Source: a bacterium (GTDB lineage Bacteria > Patescibacteriota > Saccharimonadia > Saccharimonadales > Saccharimonadaceae). From it: a stretch of DNA of 64,000 nucleotides. The stretch is taken from assembly GCA_021781475.1 (NCBI GenBank), contig JAJXWT010000003.1, positions 1 through 64,000 on the forward strand, given 5' to 3'. The stretch's first letter is position 1. Each line of letters opens with the position of its first letter. Under the pieces are notes generated by a model. That model did no database searches and was not told where the DNA came from. It worked only from the letters and a program-made list of their open reading frames with translations. Made by a program: the position numbers and the translations under genes. Shown piece after piece: positions 34,365 through 40,094 of the stretch.

Positions 34365-34404
34365 TATAACAAAAACACCCTATCGCTAGGGCGTTTTTGT
34401 TATA
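34365..34404. terminator. Bidirectional terminator between convergent genes
   Basis: TATAACAAAAACACCCTA-TCGC-TAGGGCGTTTTTGTTATA. Confidence 0.85.
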
Positions 34405-35512
34405 AATCAAGGTAGAGCACACACCACAGCATACCAGGGTCGCCGCGGTAAAAAATAGCGTAATACCAATTGCCTTCAGGTGTGAGCATTTCGGGCCAGG
34501 TGCCGTAGCGCTCGATCATGCGGCTAAAGCGGGCGTGCATTTCAGGGTAGCGGTGGTCGTTGTAGTGCTTTAACAGCCGCAAATAAAACACGCCATGCCA
34601 GCTCCAAATTGCGCGGTCTTGGTAATCGGGCATAATTGGCGCTTGCATTGTCATGCGGTGCTTAAATGGCTTGCCACTAACGGCGTACTTGAGCGGGTAG
34701 GGCGAGTTTAACTTGTGGTCGTCGATATATTGGAATGTTTTTTCGGCCATGTCCTTGTCGTCGATAATTCCCAGGTAAAAAGGGAACAGGGCGCATTCGG
34801 AACTGTAGGCGGTGTTATTGTAGGCGGCATTAAAGTAGCGGCCGTTCCAGTAGTGTTCTAAAAGCAAGTCGTGGTACATGCGCGGGCTATACAAAAAGGC
34901 GTCGAGACCAAGTTTTTCGGCGCAGCGGGCCATGCGCGCGACCATAGTTACGGCGTAGGCGCTGCGGTCGTACAGCACACCGTCGCGCATTTCGGCAAAG
35001 TGGATGTGCGGCTTGATATACCCTGTTTTTTTATCCAAGAACTGCCGGCTAAACCGCCTAAGTTGCCGATTTAAAAAGTCACGTTCGGCCGCGTTTAGTT
35101 CGTAGTGGCTCACCCAAATACTGTGGAGCAGCCACGGTAGGCTATCGATTGCCTTGTGGCCGGCCGGCGCATCAAAAGCGACCCCAACGCTGTCAATCGA
35201 GGTCGTTACGGCGCCACTGCGGCGAAAGCGTGTGAGCGCCCACCGGATATTATGGTGCACGTTCGCGGTGTGACCGGCATGGACCAATGCGGCGCAGGCT
35301 GTGCCAAAATCGCGGGTCCAAAAGTAGTCATAGTGGCCAAGGCTGGTGCGGTAATAGTTTTTGTCCCACAATTGGTCAACGATTTGCTTGCAGATTTGTT
35401 GCGCATCACCATCAAAGCGCTCCATCTTGCCAAAGTAGCGGCCATATACCTGTAGGGCAAACGCGTGGAGGTTGCCTAAAATACGGCCAATGACACGAAA
35501 AAATGGCTCCAT
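34400..35512 (-). CDS. Glycoside hydrolase-like (alpha/alpha)6 barrel (GH15/amylo-1,6-glucosidase-like)
   Basis: YDYFWTRDFG...; GTWPEMLTPEGNWY. Confidence 0.6.
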   Translation of the reverse strand: MEPFFRVIGRILGNLHAFALQVYGRYFGKMERFDGDAQQICKQIVDQLWDKNYYRTSLGHYDYFWTRDFGTACAALVHAGHTANVHHNIRWALTRFRRSGAVTTSIDSVGVAFDAPAGHKAIDSLPWLLHSIWVSHYELNAAERDFLNRQLRRFSRQFLDKKTGYIKPHIHFAEMRDGVLYDRSAYAVTMVARMARCAEKLGLDAFLYSPRMYHDLLLEHYWNGRYFNAAYNNTAYSSECALFPFYLGIIDDKDMAEKTFQYIDDHKLNSPYPLKYAVSGKPFKHRMTMQAPIMPDYQDRAIWSWHGVFYLRLLKHYNDHRYPEMHARFSRMIERYGTWPEMLTPEGNWYYAIFYRGDPGMLWCVLYLDL

Positions 35513-37301: not shown

Positions 37302-37330
37302 TTGACTTTTACAGCCTAAAATGGTATAAT
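37302..37330 (+). promoter_or_regulatory. Promoter TTGACT-N17-TATAAT
   Basis: 6 nt before ATG 37337. Confidence 0.85.
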
Positions 37331-37336
37331 GAAAAG

Positions 37337-38683
37337 ATGATATTGAAGAGAAAAACCCGCGTGAAGTCTGCCCCTAGTATCCTTGGGAACAAGGCATACG
37401 TTGATCTGCCAACGCTTAACGCGCATAAGGTGCTGGCGAAAATCGACACAGGCGCCGACTCTTCAACCATATGGGCAAGCGAAGTCGTTGAGCGTAACGG
37501 CACGTTAACTTTTAAACTCTTTGGCAAAAACTCAGTACACTACACGGGCGAAACTGTTACAACAAAAAGTTTTTCTCAGACTTCAGTGAAGAATTCTTTT
37601 GGCGAGGTGCAGATACGCTACAAAGTGGCGCTCAAGACACTCATCAACGACAGGCTTATAAAAGTAAACTACACGCTTTCTAACCGGGAAAACAACTCAA
37701 CGCCAATCCTAATTGGTCGTAAGACACTGAGTGGCAAGTTTTTAATTGATGTTGCAAAACAAGCGGAAGAACGGCCGCAGCGGGTGCTCGTTGTGAGCAA
37801 AATCCGTAGCAGTGAGGTCGCAAATTTTGTGGAGGACGTCGCGCAAGAGCTCGCAAACACGACTATCGATTATGCAACGTATGATGATATCGTCGTTAGC
37901 TTTAAAGATGGTACTATGAGCGCTTTTGTCGATACGTTTGGCGCCGACCTAGCTAGCTATGATATTGTACATTTTAAGACTTCCACAAAGCGTGATATAA
38001 CATCATCGCTTGCTCGATACGCCCAAAGCAAGGGTGCGACGGTGCTTGATTTTGCTGCAATTGCTGGCTTTCCAACAATGAGTAAGCTGTATGAATATAC
38101 GCTGCTCACATTAAACAATATTCCCATTCCCGACTCAGTCTTTGTCACACCGCAAAAAGCCCCTGCCGCATACAAACAATTTGCGAGTCAACTTGGGTTG
38201 CCCTTTGTCCTCAAGGATATCCACGGGAGCAAGGGCAACTACAACCAGGTCATCCACAACGAGGGGGAATATCAGGCAATGCTCCAGAGTGTGCAGTCGC
38301 AAGATATTTATCTGATTGGCCAAAAGTTTACGCCGAACGACGGTGATTACCGCGTGCTAGTCATGGGACACCATATAGAACTAGTAATTTACCGTAGCCG
38401 CGCCGACAATTCTACCCACCTTAATAATACGACTCAGGGCGGCCGGGCGACGCTTTTAAAGGCTACTGATTTACCGCCAGCGATACGTCGCTCGAGCCTA
38501 TTGGCGGCCCGCTTGATGGGGCGAGACATCGCAGGTGTAGATATGGTAAAAGATAAGGTGGATGGCAAATGGTATTGTTTTGAAGTCAATGACGGTCCTC
38601 AAATTGTTACGGGCGCGTTTTTAGAACAAAAGCGTACTGCCTTCGCTGCGTACATTAAACGAGTATTGGAGAAACGTATATGA
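37337..38683 (+). CDS. Retropepsin-like (RimB/ATP-dependent zinc protease family) domain fused to ATP-grasp (RimK-like)
   Basis: KIDTGADSSTIWA...ILIGRKTL N-term; C-term FVLKDIHGSKGNYN...FEVNDGPQI ATP-grasp. Confidence 0.82.
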   Translation: MILKRKTRVKSAPSILGNKAYVDLPTLNAHKVLAKIDTGADSSTIWASEVVERNGTLTFKLFGKNSVHYTGETVTTKSFSQTSVKNSFGEVQIRYKVALKTLINDRLIKVNYTLSNRENNSTPILIGRKTLSGKFLIDVAKQAEERPQRVLVVSKIRSSEVANFVEDVAQELANTTIDYATYDDIVVSFKDGTMSAFVDTFGADLASYDIVHFKTSTKRDITSSLARYAQSKGATVLDFAAIAGFPTMSKLYEYTLLTLNNIPIPDSVFVTPQKAPAAYKQFASQLGLPFVLKDIHGSKGNYNQVIHNEGEYQAMLQSVQSQDIYLIGQKFTPNDGDYRVLVMGHHIELVIYRSRADNSTHLNNTTQGGRATLLKATDLPPAIRRSSLLAARLMGRDIAGVDMVKDKVDGKWYCFEVNDGPQIVTGAFLEQKRTAFAAYIKRVLEKRI

Positions 38684-39591
38684 AAATTGCAATACTATCA
38701 AACGGCCCGGGGAACTATTCCACAAAACGCCTAAAAGAGGTGGCGAGGGCACGTGGTCACGAGGTAAAAATTATTAAATACCGCGAATGTTACGCTTCTA
38801 TCGAAAAAGATAACCCAACTATCAGTTACCGCGGTGAAGATTTGGGTGGCTACGACGCGGTGATTCCCCGCATTGCTAGTTACATGACCCGTTACGGCAC
38901 GGCTATGGTGCGTCAGCTGGAAATGCAGGGTGTGTATACTATTTCAAGCAGCATCTCCATTAGCCGTTCGCGCGACAAGTTGCGTAGCATGCAGCTTTTG
39001 GCAAAAGCCGGGGTTGATATCCCTAAAACGGTCTTTAGCCGTAACTCGGTCGATATTGATGGCCTGATTGAAAAACTTGGCGGTACGCCAGTGATTATTA
39101 AGCTGGCACGCGGTACGCACGGTAACGGTGTTGTTTTGGCAGAAACCAAAAAGGCCGCCAAGTCCGTTTTGCAGGCGTTTTATTTGCAGAACGAAGATGG
39201 CACGAACATTTTGGTGCAAGAATATGTACAAGAAAGCGCCGGTACCGACATTCGCGCCTTTGTGGTTGGCGGCCGCGTGGTTGCCAGTATGAAACGCCAA
39301 AGTTTGGACGATGACTTTAGGAGTAATTTGCATAAGGGCGGCGAAGGCACCAAGATTAAGTTGACCGACGAAGAGCGCAAAATGGCCGTTAAAGCTGCCA
39401 AGGCAATGGGCTTAAATGTTGCCGGTGTCGACCTTATGCGCAGCGCCCGCGGGCCACTCGTGCTCGAGGTGAACGCTAGCCCTGGTTTTGGCATTGAAAA
39501 GGTGACTGGCCGCGATGTAGCCACGCCGATTATTGAGTATGTGGAGCAAAACGCCAAGCGTCGCCACAAAAAAGACCGCGTCGGTGCGTAA
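38680..39591 (+). CDS. rimK: RimK-family ATP-grasp ligase
   Basis: PRIASYMTRYGTAMVRQLEMQGV; RDKLRSMQLLAKAGVDIPKT; VLEVNASPGFGIE. Confidence 0.9.
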   Translation: MKIAILSNGPGNYSTKRLKEVARARGHEVKIIKYRECYASIEKDNPTISYRGEDLGGYDAVIPRIASYMTRYGTAMVRQLEMQGVYTISSSISISRSRDKLRSMQLLAKAGVDIPKTVFSRNSVDIDGLIEKLGGTPVIIKLARGTHGNGVVLAETKKAAKSVLQAFYLQNEDGTNILVQEYVQESAGTDIRAFVVGGRVVASMKRQSLDDDFRSNLHKGGEGTKIKLTDEERKMAVKAAKAMGLNVAGVDLMRSARGPLVLEVNASPGFGIEKVTGRDVATPIIEYVEQNAKRRHKKDRVGA

Positions 39592-39614
39592 ACCGCTAGT
39601 GCTATACTAGTAGT

Positions 39615-40094
39615 ATGACATTCCTGATTGTTCTAGGAATCTACTTTGGCATATTGTTCGCGTTTGCTTTCTTAAGCCGGCGGATGGTGGCAATAGCTAG
39701 CCTTGTGTTGTGCGCTGGTGCCGAGTTGGCTCGGCTGTGGACGAATGACCTTACGCCATTGGTTGCGCAATCGGGTGTGACAATTATTAGCCCGCCGCTC
39801 AGCAGCATTGTTGCCGTTGCGCTCACGTTGTTACCAGCCATATTGGTGGTTGCAAAGAGTCCAAAAGGTAAGGGCGCCAAGCAACTGGTCAGCGCCCTTG
39901 TGTTCGCAACGCTTGGCGTCATGCTCACCTACGGTGCATTTAGCAACGCCGTTATTTTGGACAGCCAAAGCCGGGCTATTGTGCAGTCTATTTTGGCGAA
40001 CGAACGCTGGATTTTGACGGCCGGCATTGTGGCGGCGCTCGCTGAGGTGCTATTGCTACACAGGCCGCACCACGGTAATGAGAAATCCAAGTAA
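39615..40094 (+). CDS. Membrane hypothetical protein
   Basis: About 5 TM; TATACT 6 nt upstream of ATG. Confidence 0.55.
   Translation: MTFLIVLGIYFGILFAFAFLSRRMVAIASLVLCAGAELARLWTNDLTPLVAQSGVTIISPPLSSIVAVALTLLPAILVVAKSPKGKGAKQLVSALVFATLGVMLTYGAFSNAVILDSQSRAIVQSILANERWILTAGIVAALAEVLLLHRPHHGNEKSK

Follow-up and report, generated by a model that had tools for sequence, protein, structure and literature searches.

A two-gene locus of a Saccharimonadaceae genome pairs a retropepsin–ATP-grasp fusion with RimK, a possible peptide-tail module

The first 64,000 nucleotides of contig JAJXWT010000003.1 (GenBank assembly GCA_021781475.1; the whole of this stretch is hereafter the window) come from a member of the Saccharimonadaceae (Patescibacteriota, class Saccharimonadia) and carry a two-gene operon on the forward strand (+). 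The first gene (37337..38683, +) is an open reading frame (ORF) of 448 amino acids (aa) in which an N-terminal RimB-type retropepsin domain (B; aa 15-142, 37379..37762, +) is fused to an ATP-grasp domain that we designate X (aa 146-448, 37772..38680, +). The second gene (38680..39591, +) encodes a 303-aa RimK (K), the ribosomal protein S6 poly-glutamate (poly-Glu) ligase, and shares the four nucleotides ATGA (38680-38683) with the end of the fusion gene. A consensus scan placed a sigma-70-type promoter, TTGACT-17-TATAAT, ahead of the operon (37302..37330, +), with 11 of 12 positions agreeing with the consensus. The original prediction for this locus had listed a four-nucleotide overlap with a second complete RimK-type gene, a near-ideal promoter, and two ATP-grasp ligases in one operon, all of which were found. 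Matches to Pfam families PF08443 and PF05618 occur nowhere else in this 0.81 Mb genome. An assembly artefact was ruled out as the source of the fusion, since 25 further genomes have the same architecture.

The N-terminal domain matches PF05618 (Zn_protease/RimB; E 5e-12, 46.3 bits, cut-off 27) and contains an intact DTGAD catalytic motif (aa 37-41, 37445-37459, +). It stays below the cut-off of the NCBIfam RimB equivalog NF052261 (47.7 bits vs 200), as do the known RimBK hybrids; judged by these matches it is a distant relative of RimB. In an alignment of 23 RimB domains, residues D37, G39, A40, R94, R117, and G127 were invariant, and the profile built from this alignment retrieved the solved RloA structures 9g59 and 9g58 and the Legionella structure 2pma with E-values between 1e-14 and 7e-12. 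A model of the whole fusion made without an alignment reached a predicted local distance difference test (pLDDT) score of 33, so aa 1-150 were modelled alone with 17 relatives from viral contigs, giving a pLDDT of 83 and a predicted template modelling score (pTM) of 0.75. This model has a retropepsin fold: Foldseek returned RloA as the top match (E 3e-8), followed by HIV-1 protease (E 4e-4, probability 1.00). The aspartic-protease-like domain that had been proposed is thus borne out by the family match, the catalytic motif, and the model. Retropepsins act as dimers, and the fusion should therefore be a dimer carrying two X domains. In the paper on RloA, basic residues touch poly-Glu in a model (PMC12239564). 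By alignment and spacing, three of these contact residues correspond to Lys35, Arg94, and Arg117 of the fusion, of which the two arginines are invariant and position 35 is always Lys or Arg; because of this correspondence, the RimB domain of the fusion likely cleaves poly-Glu. RimB-like retropepsin proteins of 177-342 aa are also encoded by IMG/VR viral contigs (L146-L166), many of them extended at the N-terminus by about 110 aa and none with X.

The second half of the fusion had been described as a RimK-like ATP-grasp domain. This holds as far as the PF08443 match is concerned (RimK ATP-grasp; aa 250-423, 40 bits, cut-off 21), but X belongs to a divergent subfamily and is not a normal RimK copy. 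Specifically, X scored 24.5 bits against the PRK10446 model, compared with 379 bits for the RimBK hybrids of Aureibacter and Thioclava, and in a tree of 54 ligase domains, from which the RimBK of Desulfotalea psychrophila was absent, X domains (fused or free) were split from RimK and RimBK with a support of 100/99. Six residues with ATP or Mg roles in ATP-grasp enzymes (K100, K141, R192, D251, E263, and N265, in the numbering of the window RimK) are kept in X of all 34 sequences tested from the class. Conversely, the RimK positions S14, R64, and H218 are altered in most or all of these 34 sequences, and the RimK motif S-N-L-H-x-G-G has become N-N-T-x-x-G in many X domains. In Pseudomonas RimK, S14 and R64 touch the poly-Glu chain while R189 and N262 touch the terminal Glu, and X retains the Arg and Asn that match the latter two. 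Since the ATP/Mg residues are kept and RimK acceptor residues are changed, we consider with moderate confidence that X is probably an active ligase whose acceptor differs from that of RimK.

TIGR02291 was not among the matches of the fusion protein, unlike in fusions from other Patescibacteria. In several families of the latter, ORFs of about 430-510 aa (L021, L024, L028, and L029) encode a TIGR02291 domain (alpha-L-glutamate ligase-like) with an RloA-like retropepsin domain C-terminal to it, and one protein of this type (L018, 921 aa) has a further ATP-grasp part. A quick small-ORF search for a graspetide-style small precursor peptide beside X yielded no convincing conserved candidate; the conserved small ORFs that follow the fusions are contained within rimK, in different reading frames.

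The window RimK is matched over its entire length by the Rimk_N and RimK Pfam domains, passes the PRK10446 S6-glutamate-ligase equivalog (350.6 bits, cut-off 331), and has solved RimK homologues at E 5e-99. The S6 protein of the same genome ends in ENEESSEE, which makes S6 a plausible target of this RimK gene, as suggested by the precedent of the RimABK system. Of 30 S6 proteins encoded by genomes that carry B-X or X in some other arrangement, 20 have a C-terminal Glu, and in 16 the last two residues are Glu-Glu. The S6 tail was rejected as a predictor of rim genes, given that it did not discriminate between genomes with and without them. A search of the window genome with the pattern GARGARGARGARTAR, which covers TAA and TAG stops but not TGA, found no gene ending in four Glu codons, i.e., no natural RimB substrate of this kind.

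B-X fusions are patchily spread in the class, with a total of 26. Within the Saccharimonadaceae they are present in 11 of 394 genomes, each time followed immediately by rimK, and 15 more were found in other families, where rimK comes next in 14 of the 14 cases whose contig continues. Thus, rimK lies directly downstream of B-X in 25/25 checkable cases. Sister genomes mostly encode RimB separately, as a protein of about 165 aa whose gene immediately precedes rimK, and the RimK proteins encoded in this same order are 64-85% identical to that of the window. The three parts also occur in other combinations: as three adjacent separate genes for X, B, and K (L099-L101), as a reverse-order X-B fusion ahead of rimK (L108, L111, L195, and L196), as an X-B fusion in two further loci (L110 and L113), as X adjoining rimK with no RimB match (L135), and as a B-K hybrid with X beside it (L197). 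B has thus been fused repeatedly, with X or with K. A single origin of B-X was not rejected (p 0.145), and the X-B fusions require at least two changes on the tree. The X-domain tree of the fusions and the rimK tree disagree. Two fusions (from genomes G373 and G419) are sisters, yet forcing their rimK genes together was rejected (p 8e-159), and the same held for a constraint uniting the fusions from three members of the window's genus (p 4e-5); the groups for these constraint tests were picked after the tree had been seen, and both p values serve as guides. B-X seems to move or to be replaced while its position ahead of rimK stays fixed.

We tentatively favor, as a reading with a little less than an even chance of being right, a three-part peptide-tail module encoded by two genes, with RimK as the writer, RimB as the trimmer, and X as a second ligase coupled to that protease. 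RimK would write a poly-Glu tail, probably on S6. The RimB domain, acting as a retropepsin dimer, would cut tails back and would probably tune the ligases. X would be an active, differently specific ATP-grasp ligase that adds an amino acid or peptide to another acceptor and is kept beside a protease that trims or controls its product. For RimK and RimB we infer activity by homology to the Pseudomonas enzymes, while for X we hypothesize, from its conserved catalytic residues, the fusion, and the linkage, that it works as a ligase with RimB on a different acceptor.

Several observations weigh against this module. Acidic S6 tails are also present in genomes lacking rimB or rimK, and S6, although a plausible target of the RimK gene, is not specifically tied to the system. 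A published RimBK hybrid showed no S6 ligation, so the ligase of such a fusion may not write tails at all. The mapping of RimK residues onto X is uncertain across the poorly conserved N-terminal half of the domain, and we found no biochemistry for X. Of the coupled addition and removal of tails proposed originally, gene linkage and fusion form the basis; that the two ligases write the same tail was not established, the acceptor site of the fused ligase being unlike that of RimK. A bolder version, which we regard as possible but somewhat doubtful, holds that X founds a distinct ATP-grasp ligase subfamily with its own protein acceptor, and that Saccharibacteria-like Patescibacteria operate a modular tail system. 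In it X, RimB, and RimK would be shuffled and fused in various orders, and a single retropepsin would edit what two ligases of different chemistry produce.

Among the alternatives, the most serious, albeit unlikely, is that X and RimK share an acceptor, with X priming, capping, or varying the S6 poly-Glu tail that RimB trims. The constant linkage of B-X to rimK would fit such a division of labor, as would the Arg and Asn of X that match the residues holding the terminal Glu in RimK. On the other hand, conservation in X does not extend to the residues with which RimK holds the remainder of the poly-Glu chain, rimB-rimK alone suffices in many genomes of the family, and S6 tails are similar with and without X. 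The same linkage could also mean that X is a non-catalytic scaffold or regulator holding RimB close to RimK, given that RimB binds and stimulates RimK (PMC11957791) and that divergence is much faster in X and B than in RimK. The ATP/Mg residues kept in 34/34 class sequences would be needless for a scaffold, and we consider this explanation quite improbable.

It is slightly less improbable that the module makes and recycles free poly-amino-acid chains, RimB both stimulating their synthesis and cutting the product, but no storage or osmotic gene was recognized adjoining the operon and the cost in Glu and ATP would perhaps be unaffordable for a reduced genome of 0.8 Mb. Finally, the locus could simply be a published RimBK hybrid with an extra rimK alongside. 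Its domain order and length equal those of the RimBK proteins of Aureibacter and Thioclava, and rimBK with an extra rimK is known from 0.9% of rim-bearing accessions (PMC11957791). Nevertheless, the distance between the RimBK ligase and X in their PRK10446 scores and their separation into different clades contradict this explanation and make it very improbable.

Outside the class, the closest relatives of X in plasmid and phage collections were ATP-grasp proteins of Streptomyces plasmids (30% identity over 263 aa, E 6e-36). Their genes (L140:5534-6810 and L141:5704-6948) lie directly downstream of genes for Pup-like proteins that end in VQKGGQ or VQKDGQ, one of which passes the Pup model TIGR03687. 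Identity between the two ATP-grasp proteins is 39%, and the one in L141 has lost several catalytic residues; unlike in the window, no retropepsin or RimK was annotated in the stretch read around them. By analogy, these Pup neighbors are a hint that protein tails can be substrates of X-type ligases. As a partner of X within the class, however, Pup was rejected, as a Pup-family gene scored above the cut-off in only 1 of 30 X-carrying genomes and off the contig of the fusion. This clear Pup gene (L143, G373:C6:24343-24534, E 5e-18) belongs to the genome with the closest B-X fusion, lies on another contig, and may reflect assembly contamination.

The start codon of the fusion gene stands only 6 nucleotides past the end of the promoter -10 box, and because of this spacing the mRNA of the operon may be leaderless. 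In the window, a -10-like box lies 4-8 nucleotides ahead of the start in 10 of 55 ORFs, against 23 of 330 control positions (Fisher p 0.015), which suggests that leaderless transcripts are frequent in this genome. Such boxes close to starts were seen at 37325-37337, 39604-39615, 44596, and 57929, among others. The operon is preceded by dnaJ, as identified by inspection, and followed by a gene (39615-40094) with no Pfam match above the cut-off. Elsewhere in the window, a 370-aa ORF on the reverse strand (34400-35512, -) had no Pfam match at E 1 and resembles by eye an (alpha/alpha)6 glycoside hydrolase.

Among known systems, Pseudomonas rimA-rimB-rimK proved an apt comparison for the operon, since a RimB retropepsin and a RimK S6-glutamate ligase are likewise encoded together (PMC7343187, PMC11957791). 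The resemblance extends to the separate rimB-rimK genes of the sister genomes, whereas in the window RimB is fused to X. Moreover, RimA, a cyclic di-GMP phosphodiesterase, was not found among the neighboring genes examined, no EAL-domain search having been made in the rest of the window or genome. The RloA-RloB-RloC system of Pseudomonas aeruginosa also combines a retropepsin and an ATP-grasp protein in one operon (PMC12239564), and no solved fold is closer to the window RimB domain than that of RloA. However, RloA is a separate, secreted protein, RloB resides in the membrane, and X is not a TIGR02291-type ligase.

The closest parallel is RimBK. RimB was shown to be a retropepsin, one that takes Glu off RpsF and also stimulates RimK; RimBK hybrids are likewise already known (Little et al. 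2025, PMC11957791), occurring in 12% of rim-bearing accessions, mostly of Flavobacteriales and Rhodobacterales (PMC11957791). The hybrid of D. psychrophila (DP2392) joins, like the window fusion, an N-terminal RimB retropepsin to a RimK-type ATP-grasp domain at the C-terminus, with a length of about 450 aa, and it was proteolytic, yet the RpsF tested was not glutamylated (PMC11957791). Two plasmid-encoded hybrids, from Thioclava (P0006), a member of the Rhodobacterales, and from Aureibacter (P0005; Cytophagales, Bacteroidota), differ from the window in that their ligase is a canonical RimK, as opposed to X with a separate RimK in the operon. A RimB-RimK hybrid with protease activity has thus been published, but the window ligase differs from RimK. 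The idea of a RimB-RimK fusion is therefore not new and the locus is a variant of a known theme; the novelty lies in a ligase subfamily of its own, which is constantly paired with rimK, and in the recurrent reshuffling of X, B, and K. On the one hand, the published RimBK cut poly-Glu without ligating S6, which left open the purpose of a protease-fused ligase. On the other hand, the fused ligase and RimK are separate within one operon here, so that two small proteins would be enough to distinguish their roles. Should X have an acceptor of its own, poly-amino-acid tailing would reach beyond S6 glutamylation in bacteria with tiny genomes, and the recurrence of B-X, X-B, and B-K fusions would make protease-ligase coupling a general design rather than an oddity of Pseudomonas.
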